Assembly (NCBI GenBank): GCA_034189865.1
Contig: JAXHTV010000023.1
Location: 1 to 38,141, forward strand
Direction of reading: 5' to 3'
Length of the DNA stretch: 38,141 bases
Origin: Pseudomonadota bacterium
GTDB lineage: Bacteria; Pseudomonadota; Gammaproteobacteria; UBA5335
Shown: positions 1,906 to 17,675 of the stretch, piece by piece
Layout: each line of letters begins with the position of its first letter
Numbering within the stretch: position 1 is the stretch's first letter
Program-made: the position numbers and the translations under genes
Notes under the pieces: generated by a model
Database searches by the model: none
Told to the model about the DNA's origin: nothing
What the model saw: the letters and a program-made list of their open reading frames with translations, nothing else

Positions 1906-4059
1906 TTACACCGCTTCCAGCTTGGCGTAGCCCATCACCAGCCATTTGCTGCCGACTTGCTCGAAATTCACCTGCACCCGAGCCTGCGGCCCGGCCCCTT
2001 CCAGATTCAGCACAATGCCTTCGCCGAACTTGGGGTGACGCACCATCTGCCCGATTTTGAACGCACCACCAGCGCCCGCCATGGGCTGGCGGTCGTGCAA
2101 CACCGGCCGGCTGATCTGCACCCGGGGCCGTACGTCCTCCACCAACTCCGCCGGAAGCTCTTCCAGAAAACGGGAGGGAATACCGTACTGCTCGGTGTTG
2201 TAGAGCCGGCGCTTCTCGGCGTAGGTGAGATACAACTCCCGCATGGCGCGCGTCATGCCGACGTAACATAAACGTCGCTCTTCTTCGATCCCCGCGCCGT
2301 CTTCCAGCGATCGCTGGTGGGGGAAGAGGCCATCTTCCATGCCCGTCATGAACACCACCGGGAACTCCAGCCCTTTGGCGGAATGCAAGGTCATGAGCTG
2401 CACGCAGTCTTCCCACTCATCGGCCTGGCCTTCGCCCGCTTCCAGCGCGGCGTGGGTGAGGAAGGCCACCAGCGGCGAAACCCCCTCCAGGTCGGCTTCG
2501 TCCGGGCGGAATCCGCGCGCGGCGTTGATCAACTCCTGTAAGTTTTCCACCCGGGCCTCGCCCCGCTCGCCACCCTCCTGGGCGTAGTGGTCCATGAGCT
2601 TGGATTGAACAATCACCTCGCCGACCTGGTCTTCCAGGCTGAGTGATTCGACCCGCCCGTCCATCTCGTCAATCAACACCACAAACGCACCCACGGCGTT
2701 GGCGGCCCGGCCACTGCCCGCGGCCACAAACCGGGTGGCGGCTTCCCACAACGACAGGCCGTTTTCGCGAGCCAACTGGCGAACCGCGTCCATGGTGCGG
2801 TTGCCGATGCCCCGGGTGGGCAGGTTCACCACCCGCTCGAAGGAGGCATCGTCATGGCGATTGCAGATTAACCGCAGATAGGCCAAGGCGTCTTTGATTT
2901 CCGCCCGTTCGAAGAACCGCAAACCGCCATAAACCCGGTAGGGAATAGCGTGCTGCATCAAGGCTTCTTCAAACACCCGCGATTGGGCGTTGGAACGATA
3001 CAGCACGGCGATTTCGCGGCGTAACGAGCCCTGTTCCTCATGGCGGCGAATCCGGTCGAGCACAAACTGCGCTTCGTCGTACTCGTTGAAGGCGGCGTAG
3101 AGCCGGATGGGATCGCCGGTGGAACCGTCGGTCCAAAGCTCCTTACCCATGCGCCCGGTGTTGTGGGCGATCAGGCCGTTGGCGGCCTTGAGAATGGTAC
3201 TGGTGGAACGGTAGTTCTGCTCCAGCCGGACAATTTGCGCGTCGCGAAAATCGCGCCCGAACTGCTGCAAGTTTTCCACACGGGCGCCGCGCCAACTGTA
3301 AATGGACTGATCGTCGTCGCCCACCACGAACAGCTTGCCGGTGGTGCCGGCCAACTGCCGAAGCCACCGGTATTGCAGCGTATTGGTGTCTTGAAACTCG
3401 TCGACCAGAATGTGGCGAAAGCGCGCCTGATAGTGCGCCAGCAGGTCGGGGTCGTCACGCAACAGCTCGAAGCTGCGCAGCAGTAACTCGGCAAAATCCA
3501 CCAGACCGCCGCGGGCACAGGCGGCCTCGTAAGCGGCGTAGATTCGCGTCATTTGCTGATAGATGGGGTCCCCGGTATCCGCCAAGTCCCCTGGACGCAG
3601 ACCTTCTTCCTTGCGATTGTTGATAAACCACTGGACCTGGCGCACCGGCCAGCGGCTTTCATCCAGCTCCAGGCTGCGCAAGACCCGTTTCACCAAACGC
3701 CGCTGATCTTCGGTGTCCAGCACCTGAAAACTTTGTGGTAATCCGGCTTCCTGCCAGTGCTGGCGCAGCAAGCGGTGGGAAACGCCGTGGAAGGTTCCGA
3801 TCCACATGCCGCCGCTGGGAACGCCCAACAACTGCTCAATGCGCCCGCGCATTTCCGCCGCCGCCTTGTTGGTAAAGGTCACGGCCATAATGCTCCAGGG
3901 CGAAATGCCTTCCACCCCCACCAACCAGGCCACACGATGAACCAGCACGCGGGTTTTGCCGCTACCCGCGCCCGCCAACACCAAAACCGGCAGCGCCGGC
4001 GCGCCCACGGCCTCACGCTGGCGCTCGTTCAAGCCTTCCAAAATCGCGGTCACATCCAT
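1906..4059 (-). CDS. uvrD: DNA helicase II UvrD
   Basis: Superfamily 1A 3'-5' helicase for nucleotide excision repair, mismatch repair and removal of recombinase filaments. The 717-residue length is close to E. coli UvrD (720). Visible motifs are Walker A 'GAGSGKT' (residues 30-36), motif Ia 'TFTNKAA', Walker B 'VDEFQDTN' (219-226), motif III 'GDDDQSIYSWRGA' (247-259), motif IV around 'QNYRST', and 'LMTLHSAKGLEF' plus 'VGMTRA' in the second RecA lobe. The C-terminus keeps the Tudor-like tail ('VRHPKFGEGIVL'), which is characteristic of UvrD/PcrA and absent from Rep. It is divergent from the lipoprotein gene at 4120; the 60 bp between them holds no CTG-N10-CAG SOS box that I can see, unlike E. 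coli uvrD. The ribosome binding site is weak. Confidence 0.96.
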   Translation of the reverse strand: MDVTAILEGLNERQREAVGAPALPVLVLAGAGSGKTRVLVHRVAWLVGVEGISPWSIMAVTFTNKAAAEMRGRIEQLLGVPSGGMWIGTFHGVSHRLLRQHWQEAGLPQSFQVLDTEDQRRLVKRVLRSLELDESRWPVRQVQWFINNRKEEGLRPGDLADTGDPIYQQMTRIYAAYEAACARGGLVDFAELLLRSFELLRDDPDLLAHYQARFRHILVDEFQDTNTLQYRWLRQLAGTTGKLFVVGDDDQSIYSWRGARVENLQQFGRDFRDAQIVRLEQNYRSTSTILKAANGLIAHNTGRMGKELWTDGSTGDPIRLYAAFNEYDEAQFVLDRIRRHEEQGSLRREIAVLYRSNAQSRVFEEALMQHAIPYRVYGGLRFFERAEIKDALAYLRLICNRHDDASFERVVNLPTRGIGNRTMDAVRQLARENGLSLWEAATRFVAAGSGRAANAVGAFVVLIDEMDGRVESLSLEDQVGEVIVQSKLMDHYAQEGGERGEARVENLQELINAARGFRPDEADLEGVSPLVAFLTHAALEAGEGQADEWEDCVQLMTLHSAKGLEFPVVFMTGMEDGLFPHQRSLEDGAGIEEERRLCYVGMTRAMRELYLTYAEKRRLYNTEQYGIPSRFLEELPAELVEDVRPRVQISRPVLHDRQPMAGAGGAFKIGQMVRHPKFGEGIVLNLEGAGPQARVQVNFEQVGSKWLVMGYAKLEAV

Positions 4060-12029: not shown

Positions 12030-13280
12030 ATGGATCATTTCAATTACCGAGACGGCCGGCTTTTCGCCGAAGATGTTGACCTTCAAACGCTGGCGGAACG
12101 CTTCGGCACCCCGGCCTATGTGTACTCCCGCGCCACCATTTGCCGCCACTTCCGCGTCTTCTCGGAAGCTCTGGCCGGCCAGGCTCATTTGCTTTGCTAT
12201 GCGGTCAAGGCCAATTCCAATTTGGCGGTGCTGAACCTGCTGGCAGGATTGGGCGCCGGCTTCGACATCGTGTCGGTCGGCGAGCTGGAACGGGTACTCA
12301 GGGCCGGCGGCGACCCCGGTAAGGTGGTGTTTTCCGGCGTCGGCAAACGAGCGGATGAAGTTCGCCGCGCGCTGGAGGTGGGCATTCGCTGTTTCAACGT
12401 GGAATCCGAAGGCGAACTGGAGCGAATCGACACCATCGCCCGGGAAATGGGGGTCCGCGCGCCAGTCTCCTTGCGGGTCAATCCGGACGTCGACGCCCAA
12501 ACCCATCCGTATATCTCCACCGGACTGAAGGAAAACAAATTCGGCATCGATATCGCGGTGGCGGAGTCGGTCTACCACCGCGCACATCAAATGGATGGGA
12601 TACGGCTGGAAGGCATCGACTGCCACATCGGTTCTCAATTGACCGGAACCCAACCCTTTGTCGATGCCTTGGCACGGGTGCTGGCGATGGTCGATCGCCT
12701 GGCCGAAGCCGGCATTCATTTACGCCACATCGATGTGGGCGGAGGGTTAGGCATCCGCTATCGCAACGAAACGCCGCCGACGCCGGATGAGTATGTACGC
12801 GCCTTGCGGCCCAGTTTGGCGGGGCGTGATTTGGAAATTCTCTTTGAACCCGGGCGGGTGATCGTGGGCAACGCCGGTGTGCTGCTGACCCGCGTGGAGT
12901 ACCTCAAACCGCATGGCGAACGGGCGTTTGCCATCGTAGACGCCGGCATGAACGATCTGATTCGCCCGGCGCTTTACCACGCCTGGCAGGACATCGTGCC
13001 GGTCATCCAACGCGACGGGGCCGAAGGCCAATGCTACGACATTGTGGGTCCGGTCTGTGAAACAGCCGATTTTATCGGCCGGGAACGTCAACTGAACCTC
13101 GAGCCCGGCGATATTTTGGCGGTGCGTTCCTCGGGTGCGTACGGCTTTGTGATGAGCTCGAACTACAACTCGCGGCCACGTCCGCCGGAAATCATGGTCG
13201 ACGGCGCACAAGCTCATGTGGTTCGAGCACGGGAAAGCATCGATACCTTGATGCTCGGCGAATCACTGCTGCCCAATTGA
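12030..13280 (+). CDS. lysA: Diaminopimelate decarboxylase
   Basis: PLP-dependent fold-type III enzyme making L-lysine from meso-diaminopimelate, the last step of lysine synthesis. The 416 residues match the family. The PLP lysine is in 'CYAVKANSN' (Lys60); 'HIGSQLT' carries the phosphate-contact histidine, 'VGGGLGIRY' is the glycine-rich phosphate loop, and 'VCETADFIG' supplies the catalytic cysteine from the partner subunit of the dimer. ATG 12030 is 18 bp after lptM; the ribosome binding site is poor, so translation may depend on lptM. In many gammaproteobacteria dapF follows lysA, whereas here polA does. Confidence 0.96.
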   Translation: MDHFNYRDGRLFAEDVDLQTLAERFGTPAYVYSRATICRHFRVFSEALAGQAHLLCYAVKANSNLAVLNLLAGLGAGFDIVSVGELERVLRAGGDPGKVVFSGVGKRADEVRRALEVGIRCFNVESEGELERIDTIAREMGVRAPVSLRVNPDVDAQTHPYISTGLKENKFGIDIAVAESVYHRAHQMDGIRLEGIDCHIGSQLTGTQPFVDALARVLAMVDRLAEAGIHLRHIDVGGGLGIRYRNETPPTPDEYVRALRPSLAGRDLEILFEPGRVIVGNAGVLLTRVEYLKPHGERAFAIVDAGMNDLIRPALYHAWQDIVPVIQRDGAEGQCYDIVGPVCETADFIGRERQLNLEPGDILAVRSSGAYGFVMSSNYNSRPRPPEIMVDGAQAHVVRARESIDTLMLGESLLPN

Positions 13281-13300
13281 CGAGTGAACAGCAAACGGCC

Positions 13301-16024
13301 ATGAGCGATTCAGACACAATCCCGCCGGAAGCCGGTCGTCCCACCGAGCTGGTGATGGTGGACGGCTCGTCGTACCTCTATCGGGCGTTCCACGCCTTGC
13401 CGCCGCTGAGCAACTCCCGCGGCCAACCCACCGGTGCGGTGTATGGCGTCATCAACATGTTGCGCAAACTGCTCCGCGAGCACCAGCCCCAGCGTATCGC
13501 CGTGGTCTTCGACGCGCCCGGCAAGACCTTTCGGGACGAGTTGTTCGAGTCCTACAAATCGCATCGCCCGCCCATGCCGGACGATTTGAGGTCGCAGATC
13601 GAACCGTTGCACGCCGCGGTCTCGGCCATGGGTATTCCCTTGCTGCAAATTCCCGGCGTCGAAGCCGACGATGTCATCGGCACGCTGGCGCGGCAGGCAG
13701 GCGATGCGGGTATCCACACGCTGATCTCCACCGGCGACAAGGACATGGCGCAACTGGTCAACGGCCACGTGACGCTGGTCAACACCATGACCGGCACCGT
13801 ATTGGATCGCCAAGGGGTGATCGACAAGTTCGGCGTGCCCCCGGAGCGCATTATCGACTACCTGGCGCTGGTGGGAGACAGCTCGGATAACATTCCGGGG
13901 GTTCCCAAAGTCGGCCCGAAAACGGCAGCCAAGTGGCTGAACGAATACGGCAGCTTAGATGAGATCATCGCGCGGGCCGAGGAAATTCCCGGCAAAGTGG
14001 GCGAGTCGTTGCGTGCCAACTTGCCTCAACTGGAGTTATCCCGCCTGCTGGCCACCATCCACTGCGACGTCAAACTGGCCGAAAGTCTCGACCAACTCTC
14101 GCCCAGCGAACCCGACACGGACAAACTCCGAGAACTGTATACGGAGCTGGAGTTCGGCGGGCTATTGCGAGAACTGGAAGCCGACCAACCCGATCCGCCG
14201 CGGGGGTCGGAGTCTCCCCGTCGCTACCAGACGGTGTTGGATCAAAAAACCCTGGATGGTTGGCTTGAGCGGATCAAACATGCCGACCTGTTCGCCTTCG
14301 ACACGGAAACCACCAGCCTCCGGTACGACAAAGCCGAAGTTGTGGGGGTTTCTTTCGCCATCGAGCCCGGCGAAGCGGCCTACGTGCCACTGGCTCACAA
14401 CTACATAGGCGCGCCGGAGCAATTGAACCGGGAAGCCGTTTTGGCGCAGCTCAAGCCTATCTTGGAGGACCCAAAGCACGCGAAGGTCGGGCAGAACCTC
14501 AAATACGACAAGAACGTGCTGGCCAATCACGGCATTGAGCTGACCGGCATTGCCCACGACACCATGCTGCAATCGTATGTGCTCAACAGCACCGCCGGCC
14601 GCCACGATATGGATTCGATGGCGTTGCGGGAGCTCGGCGTGACCACCATCAAGTTCGAAGACGTGGCCGGAAAAGGCGCGCGACAGCTGGGGTTTGACGA
14701 AGTCGAAATCGAAAAAGCCGCCGAGTACGCAGCCGAAGATGCGGACATCACACTCCGATTGCACCAATCCTTGTGGCCACGGCTCAACAAAGAAACCCGT
14801 CTGCGCGCTGTCTACGAGGAAATGGAAGTCCCTCTGGTTCCCGTTCTGTCGCGAATGGAACAAACCGGGGTCTTGGTGGATCCCGAGCTGCTGCGCCGGC
14901 AAAGTCAGGAACTCGCCGAAGCCATGGCGGAACTCGAAGTGAAGGCCCACGATGAGGCGGGGCAAGCTTTCAACCTCGGTTCCCCGAAACAACTTCAGGA
15001 AATCCTATTCGACAAACTGCAATTGCCGGCACTGCGCAAGACCCCGAAAGGCCAACCCTCGACGGCGGAAGACGTGTTGCAGGAACTGGCTAACGACTAC
15101 CGCTTGCCGCAACTGATTCTGGAATATCGCTCGCTCAGCAAGCTGAAGTCGACGTACACCGACAAGTTGCCGGATTTGATCAGCCCCAAGACGGGGCGTA
15201 TTCACACCTCCTACCACCAAGCGGTCGCCGCCACCGGGCGCCTCTCCTCGTCCGAACCCAATTTGCAGAATATCCCCATACGAACCGCCGAAGGACGCAG
15301 GATCCGAGAGGCATTTGTCGCCCCGAAAGGGTATCGCATCCTCTCGGCAGACTATTCGCAAATCGAGCTGCGTATCATGGCCCATCTCTCCGGTGATGCG
15401 GGCCTGCTCAAAGCGTTTGCCGAAGGCAAGGACATTCACCAAGCCACGGCCTCGGAGGTATTCGGCGTGTCGCCGGACCAAGTTTCGGCGGACCAAAGAC
15501 GCTCGGCCAAGGCGATCAATTTTGGACTGATCTATGGGATGTCGGCGTTTGGCTTGAGCCGCCAACTGGGCATTGAGCGTAGCGCCGCGCAAACTTATGT
15601 AGACCGGTATTTTGATCGCTATCCGGGCGTTAAAGACTTTATGGACCGAATCCAGGCACAAGCCCACGAAGACGGCTATGTCGAGACGGTCTTCGGGCGA
15701 CGGCTTTATCTGCCGGAGATCAACTCACGCAACGCCCAGCGGCGTCAGTACGCCGAGCGCACTGCGATCAATGCGCCCATGCAGGGTACCGCGGCTGACA
15801 TCATCAAGCGCGCCATGCTCGCAATCGACCGATGGCTGAACACATCGAACAACGGGATACGTATGATCATGCAGGTACACGACGAGTTAGTGTTCGAAGT
15901 ACCGAAATCACAGATCTCCGACGCCGAAACCACGGTTAGAAAATTTATGATTAGCGCAGCCGAGCTAAAAACGCCGCTGGATGTAGATGTCGGAACCGGT
16001 AGAAACTGGGGCGAGAGTCACTAA
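13301..16024 (+). CDS. polA: DNA polymerase I
   Basis: Repair and Okazaki-fragment-processing polymerase with three activities. The 907 residues contain an N-terminal 5' nuclease ('LVMVDGSSYLYRAFHALPP' and the H3TH region near 'DSSDNIPGVPKVGPKTA'), a 3'-5' proofreading domain with the acidic pair in 'FDTETTS' (Asp334, Glu336), 'NLKYDKN' and 'EDADITLR', so proofreading looks intact, and the family A polymerase with 'SADYSQIELRIMAHLSGD', 'RRSAKAINFGLIYGMS' and 'VHDELVFEV'. An upstream in-frame TTG at 13277 would overlap lysA, but ATG 13301 fits the family N-terminus better. It lies 20 bp after lysA, so it may share its transcript. Downstream is the small-RNA region. Confidence 0.96.
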   Translation: MSDSDTIPPEAGRPTELVMVDGSSYLYRAFHALPPLSNSRGQPTGAVYGVINMLRKLLREHQPQRIAVVFDAPGKTFRDELFESYKSHRPPMPDDLRSQIEPLHAAVSAMGIPLLQIPGVEADDVIGTLARQAGDAGIHTLISTGDKDMAQLVNGHVTLVNTMTGTVLDRQGVIDKFGVPPERIIDYLALVGDSSDNIPGVPKVGPKTAAKWLNEYGSLDEIIARAEEIPGKVGESLRANLPQLELSRLLATIHCDVKLAESLDQLSPSEPDTDKLRELYTELEFGGLLRELEADQPDPPRGSESPRRYQTVLDQKTLDGWLERIKHADLFAFDTETTSLRYDKAEVVGVSFAIEPGEAAYVPLAHNYIGAPEQLNREAVLAQLKPILEDPKHAKVGQNLKYDKNVLANHGIELTGIAHDTMLQSYVLNSTAGRHDMDSMALRELGVTTIKFEDVAGKGARQLGFDEVEIEKAAEYAAEDADITLRLHQSLWPRLNKETRLRAVYEEMEVPLVPVLSRMEQTGVLVDPELLRRQSQELAEAMAELEVKAHDEAGQAFNLGSPKQLQEILFDKLQLPALRKTPKGQPSTAEDVLQELANDYRLPQLILEYRSLSKLKSTYTDKLPDLISPKTGRIHTSYHQAVAATGRLSSSEPNLQNIPIRTAEGRRIREAFVAPKGYRILSADYSQIELRIMAHLSGDAGLLKAFAEGKDIHQATASEVFGVSPDQVSADQRRSAKAINFGLIYGMSAFGLSRQLGIERSAAQTYVDRYFDRYPGVKDFMDRIQAQAHEDGYVETVFGRRLYLPEINSRNAQRRQYAERTAINAPMQGTAADIIKRAMLAIDRWLNTSNNGIRMIMQVHDELVFEVPKSQISDAETTVRKFMISAAELKTPLDVDVGTGRNWGESH

Positions 16025-16108: not shown

Positions 16109-16125
16109 CATTTGAACTTCAAATG
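16109..16125. promoter_or_regulatory. 17-bp palindrome over the sRNA -35 element
   Basis: CATTTGAACTTCAAATG is a perfect dyad with 8-bp arms around a central C at 16117. It exactly covers the GAACTT that I read as the -35 of an ECF-type promoter (16114-16119). The position suggests an operator for a dimeric regulator, but a palindrome of this size could arise by chance and no regulator is identified. Confidence 0.45.
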
Positions 16126-16140
16126 GCGCAAAATGTCTGT
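16114..16140 (+). promoter_or_regulatory. RpoE/AlgU-like (ECF sigma) promoter of the polA-engB sRNA
   Basis: GAACTT at 16114-16119 and TCTGT at 16136-16140, separated by exactly 16 bp, match the RpoE/AlgU consensus (GAACTT, 16-17 bp, TCTGA) at nearly every position. Transcription would start near 16145-16148, just before or within a strong stem-loop. In Pseudomonas the sRNA ErsA in the same locus is driven by the envelope-stress sigma factor AlgU, which makes this reading coherent. Confidence 0.6.
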
Positions 16141-16145
16141 GAGAC

Positions 16146-16267
16146 GGGTGCCGCAATAGCACCCGTTTCCTACCCTGAGTAAGCGGGCCCATCGATATCC
16201 CCCAAGATCAGGTGGGTTCCGAACAGCCACGGCAGTCTCCCCCTTTAGACTGTCGTGGCTTTTTTTT
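16146..16267 (+). ncRNA. Candidate envelope-stress small RNA in the polA-engB gap (ErsA/Spot 42 position)
   Basis: A transcript of about 122 nt is predicted from the ECF-type promoter to the terminator. It would begin with a perfect stem (arms at 16144-16151 and 16159-16166, 7-nt loop), continue through a largely unpaired middle carrying CCCCC at 16199-16203, and end in a long terminator whose loop is CCCCCTTT. C-rich single-stranded patches are what Hfq-dependent RNAs use to cover Shine-Dalgarno sequences. The polA-engB gap houses Spot 42 in enterobacteria and ErsA (about 130 nt) in Pseudomonas. Homology to ErsA is inferred from locus, length, promoter class and layout; I could not align it. 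The alternative is a plain bidirectional terminator between convergent genes. Confidence 0.6.
16225..16267 (+). terminator. Rho-independent terminator of the sRNA (and polA)
   Basis: AGCCACGGCAGTCT (16225-16238) pairs with AGACTGTCGTGGCT (16247-16260) with one G-U pair, giving a 14-bp stem with an 8-nt C-rich loop and a run of eight T at 16260-16267. This is the strongest intrinsic terminator in the window. Confidence 0.93.
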
Positions 16268-16281
16268 ACGGTCGTAAAACG

Positions 16282-16911
16282 CTAGTGCGCAGCCACGCTC
16301 TCATCTTCCAACCCGCCCGGGTCCAACCAGCGGGCCAACCGTGTGCGCGCGTCATCCCACCCCATCGCTTTGGTGGCTGAAAAAAGTTGAACGGTAAACA
16401 AATCTCCCGATAATTCTTCCAACTGTTTTCTCACGCGAAACAGAACCTGCGTCGCCGCCCCGCGGCTGAGCTTGTCTGATTTCGTCAAAAGGACATGGCA
16501 AGGCAGCCCCGCTTGCGCGCACCAGTTCAATAACTGTTGATCGAAATCAGTCATCGGGTGTCGGACATCCATGATGACGAACACCCCCTTTAAGCTATCG
16601 CGACCGGCCAAATACTCGCCGATCAACTTCCCCCAATGCCGGCGTATGGCTTCAGGCACTCGGGCAAAACCATAGCCCGGCAAGTCGACCAGGCGGGTGC
16701 CATCGTCAAATACGAAAAAATTGATCAATTGCGTGCGCCCTGGCGTGCGACTGGCACGCGCCAACCCTTTCCTTGACGTTATCGCATTGATCGCACTGGA
16801 CTTTCCCGAGTTCGAGCGACCGGCGAAAGCCACCTCTGCCCCACTGTCAACGGGCAAACTCCGTAACCGATCAGCACTGATTAAAAAGGAGACGTTGCGA
16901 AAATCTTTCAT
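16282..16911 (-). CDS. engB: Ribosome biogenesis GTPase EngB (YihA/YsxC)
   Basis: TrmE-Era-type GTPase needed for assembly of the large ribosomal subunit. The 209 residues show G1 'GRSNSGKSS' (31-39), G3 'DLPGYGFARV', G4 'TKSDKL' and G5 'SATKAMG', in the correct order. It converges on polA and is divergent from cytochrome c4, as in Pseudomonas. The stop is only 14 bp beyond the T-tract of the sRNA terminator. Start ATG at 16911 is the family start ('FRNVSFLISA'). Confidence 0.95.
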   Translation of the reverse strand: MKDFRNVSFLISADRLRSLPVDSGAEVAFAGRSNSGKSSAINAITSRKGLARASRTPGRTQLINFFVFDDGTRLVDLPGYGFARVPEAIRRHWGKLIGEYLAGRDSLKGVFVIMDVRHPMTDFDQQLLNWCAQAGLPCHVLLTKSDKLSRGAATQVLFRVRKQLEELSGDLFTVQLFSATKAMGWDDARTRLARWLDPGGLEDESVAAH

Positions 16912-16959: not shown

Positions 16960-17063
16960 TAGCGACCCGAAAGTACATGGGCGCCCGCATTGTACGTTAT
17001 TGTCGACTGCACTGTTGACCCCGTCACAAGCGGATACCGCTTGCTCAGGAGGCCTTCCGAATC

Positions 17064-17675
17064 ATGAATAAACGGCTCGCAGCCATCGTTACGCTTATCG
17101 CCATCGGCGTCATGAACCCCGTTTATGCCGGAGGCAACGCGGAAACCGGGAAAGCCAAAGCGGTTCCTTGCGCCGCTTGTCACGGAGCGGATGGCAACAG
17201 CGTCAACGGCACATGGCCCAAGTTGGCCGGACAGCATGCCCAGTACATCGAATCGCAGCTTAAGGCCTTCCGTTCCGGCGAGCGAAGCAACCCGCTCATG
17301 ACTGGGCAGGCGGCAGCTCTAAGCGATCAAGACATTCTCGATTTAGCCGCCTATTACTCTGAGCAGACGCTCAAGCCAGGTGTCGCCGATCCCGATAAAG
17401 TGGATCTGGGCCAGACGATTTATCGCGCGGGCAACGCCGACACCGAGGTTTCGGCATGCATGGCCTGCCACGGACCTTCAGGCAAAGGCAACGGTCCTGC
17501 GGGTTATCCACGTATCGGCGGGCAGCATGGGGCCTACGTGGCCGCACAGCTTAAAGCCTATGCCTCCGGCGAGCGTGGAAACACCACCACCGGCCGAATG
17601 ATGCAAGATATTGCCTCTAAGATGAGCGACAAAGAAATCGAAGCGGTGGCATCGTTTGTTGAGGGACTCTATTAA
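17064..17675 (+). CDS. Dihaem cytochrome c4
   Basis: Periplasmic electron carrier with two c-type haem domains, usually feeding terminal oxidases such as cbb3. The 203-residue precursor has a signal peptide (cleavage near 'VYAGG', about residue 22) and two homologous halves, each with a CxxCH site: 'CAACH' at 36-40 and 'CMACH' at 132-136. Met residues after each site ('PLMTGQ' and 'GRMMQD') are likely axial ligands. AGGAGG lies 11 bases before the ATG. The order engB / cytochrome c4 / dsbA is the Pseudomonas arrangement. An oxidoreductase nearby fits with haem attachment needing redox control of cysteines, though that link is inference. Confidence 0.93.
   Translation: MNKRLAAIVTLIAIGVMNPVYAGGNAETGKAKAVPCAACHGADGNSVNGTWPKLAGQHAQYIESQLKAFRSGERSNPLMTGQAAALSDQDILDLAAYYSEQTLKPGVADPDKVDLGQTIYRAGNADTEVSACMACHGPSGKGNGPAGYPRIGGQHGAYVAAQLKAYASGERGNTTTGRMMQDIASKMSDKEIEAVASFVEGLY

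Follow-up and report, generated by a model that had tools for sequence, protein, structure and literature searches.

Locus and anatomy of the RNA

Does the gap between polA and engB in this genome hold a small RNA gene of its own, and if so, to which known RNAs is it related? We addressed this question in a 38,141-nucleotide stretch of contig JAXHTV010000023.1 (hereafter the window), for which the initial annotation had proposed an ErsA-like stress RNA between the two genes. That placement is correct. Pfam analysis confirmed both neighbours, identifying polA (13277–16024, forward strand) by PF00476 (E 1.4e-168) together with exonuclease domains, and the convergent engB (yihA; 16282–16911, reverse strand) by PF01926. 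The RNA gene lies between the ends of these two housekeeping genes at 16024 and 16282. In L017, a relative from the same GTDB family but another genus, the RNA was lost or moved, because the polA–engB gap there spans only ~76 nt and holds no RNA.

The RNA is ~125 nt long (16144–16268, forward strand), close to the original estimate of about 122 nt. Its 5′ stem-loop SL1 (16141–16169) is perfect, as had been claimed, with 11 pairs at pairing probabilities of 0.96–1.0 in the predicted fold. Judging from the promoter spacing, the 5′ start probably lies at 16144–16146, and the first 3–5 nt of SL1 may precede it. A rejected alternative hairpin, CCCGUUU/AAGCGGG, which would replace SL1, reaches −9.0 kcal/mol alone and has a probability of 0 in the full ensemble. 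SL1 is followed by a core, CCTACCCTGAGTAAGCGG (16169–16186), predicted to be mostly unpaired and proposed here as the seed, by the predicted hairpin SL3 (16184–16221) with its loop CCCCCAAG, and by an intrinsic terminator (16225–16268) identified from the fold and a terminator scan. The latter comprises a hairpin of 14 pairs with a C-rich loop (16225–16260) and then eight T, exactly as first described. The two C-rich patches noted initially are present, although the predicted fold leaves three accessible: CCTACCCTGAGTAAG, largely unpaired at about 16169–16183, the CCCCCAAG loop at about 16200–16206, and CCCCCTTT in the terminator loop at 16239–16246. Positions 16141–16267 fold with −59.7 kcal/mol (z −6.7), a stability reached by none of 200 shuffles; folding from a start at 16145 gave z −5.8.

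The reading-frame list contains frames of 21–42 codons that overlap this stretch, as a short protein-coding gene would require. Among all short reading frames over the stretch, however, no forward-strand frame spans the whole RNA. The one that begins within it is 21 codons long, and both long frames across it lie on the opposite strand. The RNA also varies in length and carries paired substitutions across relatives, and we regard a coding gene as scarcely credible.

Conservation of the RNA family

The polA-downstream stretches of relatives follow the same plan of promoter, 5′ hairpin, C-rich hairpins and terminator. From alignment A1 of 12 such RNAs, none of them from the window's GTDB family, we built the covariance model R1, whose structure was derived from the folds of the 12 seed RNAs with the window left out. 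R1 matched the window RNA over its full length (1–123 of 123; 41.0 bits, E 6.5e-11), and at a threshold of E <0.001 this was its sole match in the window's genome (41 bits, E 4.3e-10). A search of 100 sources returned 51 matches, nearly all directly 3′ of polA. A lack of conservation in relatives, named by the initial annotation as evidence against its reading, was not what we found, as R1 matched 186 of 369 Gammaproteobacteria genomes at E ≤0.001. Because R1 contains no knowledge of the flanking genes, their presence serves as an independent check: polA and/or engB lay within 1.5 kb of 29 of the 30 best matches and of 16 of 20 matches at ~38–43 bits, the range of the window RNA. An engB homologue adjoins family members in many genomes, and the window RNA itself lies beside both genes.

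Of 349 genomes drawn from across the phylum, 43 matched R1 at E 1e-4; ten of these 43 belong to other classes and score weakly. Weak matches outside Gammaproteobacteria (about 24–33 bits) occurred in G402, G403, G455, G466, G500 and G645, and could be ar14-like RNAs or chance. Several genomes carry the RNA in tandem after polA. G178 (locus L135, C33:13148–13902) and G285 (C8:6556–7495), which belong to one family, each yield five R1 matches, of which at least four are consecutive; L084 has three copies (2699–3265) and several other genomes have two. Each copy may have different targets.

All 29 of the 29 modelled pairs showed two-sided changes in the alignments. The covariation score was 0.556, compared with 0.170 for shuffled and at most 0.135 for slid controls, a level that is optimistic in that alignments fitted to the model favour the model's structure. 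Values were similar with 73 distinct sequences (0.556–0.575 versus 0.17–0.19 shuffled and at most 0.14 slid), and the distance from the slid controls is large. Helix 1, corresponding to SL1, covaries across the family, and helix 4 of alignment A3, the terminator, reaches 93.5% pairing and shows changes in either strand. The SL3 helix is poorly registered in R1 (36–41% paired); its CCCCAA motif is found in 59 of 75 family members.

These data also bear on whether the locus is nothing more than a terminator serving both polA and the convergent engB, without an RNA gene of its own. The position of a strong hairpin and T8 between convergent genes would fit such an arrangement, as would the outcome of the generic terminator scan, which found one site against a shuffle mean of 1.0 and did not exceed its own shuffles. 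However, covariation and conservation are seen along the entire RNA, in SL1 and in the unpaired core as well, the RNA has its own promoter (see below), and in some genomes the whole RNA unit is repeated in tandem. We consider a mere shared terminator very improbable.

A promoter shared with rpoE

Upstream of the RNA lies an exact match to a sigma-E (RpoE/AlgU)-type promoter, GAACTT-N15-GTCTG (16114–16139, forward strand), in which GAACTT (16114–16119) and GTCTG (16135–16139) are separated by 15 nt, or by 16 nt if read to TCTGT. By its sequence, the locus thus has the sigma-E/AlgU-type promoter that characterizes ErsA. The pattern GAACTT-N15-GTCTR has two exact matches in the 2.9 Mb genome, one at the RNA locus and one upstream of rpoE (C7:35070–35095, minus strand), ~50 bp before the start of that gene, a recurrence that substantiates the promoter type assigned initially. 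The count by itself is unremarkable, because the reversed pattern, used as a control, also occurs once in the same genome. The weight lies with the second site, which occupies the position of the rpoE promoter; the sigma factor RpoE is expected to have a self-controlled promoter. The genome encodes one RpoE above the NCBIfam cut-off and one Hfq.

The element recurs in most of the family. At a score of at least 9 of 12, it precedes 61 of the 75 members at a constant offset, versus 4% of shuffles, although 10 of the 61 are seeds, picked partly by promoter; without the 12 seeds, our own count gave 51 of 63. Scoring of the 75 members detected no full sigma-E element at true sX13 loci or in a Rudaea relative, and the promoter type is therefore not constant across the family.

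In a different reading, the window RNA belongs to the same family and pairs in the same way but is constitutive, free of RpoE control, its GAACTT and GTCTG being accidental. Under relaxed Rfam limits, sX13 was indeed the first model to match the window RNA (27.1 bits, E 0.0021), and sX13 is reported to be constitutively expressed (PMC3771888). Yet the exact promoter pattern occurs solely at the RNA and before rpoE, and the element stands at a fixed offset in most family members. A constitutive RNA is, in our judgement, improbable, and control by RpoE is the reading we retain.

An exposed core and a candidate target

The segment TTCCTACCCTGAGTAAG is identical in the window and in four relatives of the same GTDB family (L018, L022, L023 and L024). 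The SL1 stem of the window is unlike that of these four, and the terminator stems vary by paired changes. At the position of the core, other families have a hairpin, SL2, with the loop CCTCCCT, a motif that is common but not universal (47 of 75 members). No canonical SL2 hairpin with a CCTCCCT-type loop forms in the predicted fold of the window RNA, where the core CCTACCCTGAGT, common to the same-family relatives, is mostly unpaired. Because the core is invariant in these relatives and predicted to be mostly unpaired where others have the CCTCCCT hairpin, it suggests an exposed seed.

Whole-RNA duplex energies were set aside because they ignore the RNA's own structure. For the core, the best predicted duplex among 30 window genes (−26.5 kcal/mol) was with the leader of a cytochrome c (cyt c4-type) gene at 17064, where the candidate site CCGCTTGCTCAGGAGG (17037–17052, forward strand) covers the ribosome site. 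Among 20,000 shuffled leaders keeping AGGAGG, none was as good. This leader also contains a perfect hairpin, CAAGCGG-ATA-CCGCTTG (17027–17043), directly 5′ of the ribosome site, which has AAGCGG in common with the RNA core. As a class-wide conserved target, cytochrome c4 was rejected, with only a marginal difference between own and cross pairs (mean rank 0.455, p 0.047). Because the site lies partly inside the leader hairpin and other families do not clearly preserve the pairing, the cytochrome c4 gene is a candidate target for the window's genome only. The phytase-gene leader, suggested earlier as a target, did not rank with the 14 strongest duplexes predicted for the window.

Proposed mode of action

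Taken as a whole, the locus very probably encodes an RpoE-driven small RNA that blocks ribosome sites with its C-rich patches and that is a homologue of ErsA and sX13 within a family of polA–engB RNAs. We infer expression, direction of regulation, Hfq use and targets of the window RNA as follows. RpoE (sigma-E) holoenzyme would transcribe the free-standing gene from its own promoter, and the intrinsic terminator would end the transcript. Under envelope stress, RpoE would raise both its own level and that of the RNA. The patches CUACCCUGAGUAAG in the core, CCCCCAAG in the SL3 loop and CCCCCUUU in the terminator loop would then halt the translation of several mRNAs by pairing with their G-rich Shine-Dalgarno regions, probably with Hfq. 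The RNA may thereby act on envelope genes, as the initial annotation proposed.

Relationship to ErsA, sX13, anti-hemB and Spot 42

At gathering cut-offs, Rfam found nothing in the window except a tRNA. The window RNA scores below the cut-offs of ErsA (50 bits), sX13 (50 bits) and anti-hemB (49.5 bits), and the covariance-model search suggested with the initial annotation, for ErsA (RF01719) and Spot 42 (RF00021), left the window unmatched by either model even when relaxed to E 10. The proposed likeness to ErsA is nevertheless supported at the level of homology through R1, which was made without either RNA, while sX13 is the nearer model. For Spot 42, the shared locus stands; kinship was rejected, as R1 left the Spot 42 locus L091 unmatched and the Spot 42 model gave no match in the window.

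We examined the reach of R1 across the named families. In 29 genomes around the Pseudomonas-like G169 (so called from its PrrF match), ErsA was above its cut-off in 19, and in 16 of these 19 R1's best match was the same place. All three true sX13 loci were matched by R1 at 35–36 bits, and R1 also matched a Rudaea locus (L088) that passes the cut-off of the sX13 model. Other R1 members gave sub-threshold scores with anti-hemB, ErsA and ar14. The anti-hemB model (RF02837, Burkholderia) matched 167 of 369 Gammaproteobacteria genomes at E 0.001, largely at R1's places, but gave no match at that threshold in the window's genome. Only 20 passed its own cut-off, and all 20 over-cut-off loci tested were R1 matches; because 167 genomes match at E 0.001, the greater part of the membership is concealed by the anti-hemB cut-off and name. 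RF01719, RF02232 and RF02837 are assigned to no clan in Rfam, and R1 therefore links three families that have no clan in common.

The window RNA is a member of a family far broader than its named examples. The sX13 study, which drew a comparison with Spot 42 and alpha-r7, did not settle whether other bacteria encode similar RNAs at polA, nor whether such RNAs share a mode of action (PMC3771888). R1 answers the first half of this question, as about half of the sampled Gammaproteobacteria carry a similar RNA at polA. In the literature covered, which omits most subscription journals, we found no paper uniting ErsA, sX13, Spot 42 or anti-hemB and no description of the breadth of the ErsA/sX13-type family. 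RNAs of the window's type would offer a ready RpoE-regulon RNA for many species.

Compared with the known systems, the window RNA resembles Pseudomonas ErsA (Pseudomon-1, RF01719) as a C-rich small RNA with a sigma-E/AlgU-type promoter, and differs from it in primary sequence and stems. ErsA has targets of the algC/oprD type; it depends on AlgU and, aided by Hfq, represses algC (PMC8395346). With sX13 of Xanthomonadaceae (RF02232), whose model matches it along its whole length, it shares the position downstream of polA and C-rich loops, which in sX13 are reported to act on G-rich mRNA motifs; sX13 activity does not require Hfq (PMC3771888). Unlike the window RNA, sX13 loci lack the full sigma-E element. 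Spot 42 of Enterobacterales (RF00021) is alike in its position after polA. Common descent of ErsA, sX13, anti-hemB and the window RNA is the simplest reading of these sequence relationships, and convergence on C-rich hairpins and a terminator could formally still account for the resemblance. We lean, with some reserve, towards a single ancestral RNA, mostly RpoE-driven and equipped with C-rich loops that block Shine-Dalgarno sequences, from which ErsA, sX13, anti-hemB and many unnamed polA–engB RNAs would derive and whose SL2 would have opened into an exposed seed in the window's lineage. This reading predicts that ErsA-type and sX13-type targets obey one rule and, if true, would rank the family of the ancestral RNA with the most broadly distributed envelope-stress small RNAs in Gammaproteobacteria.
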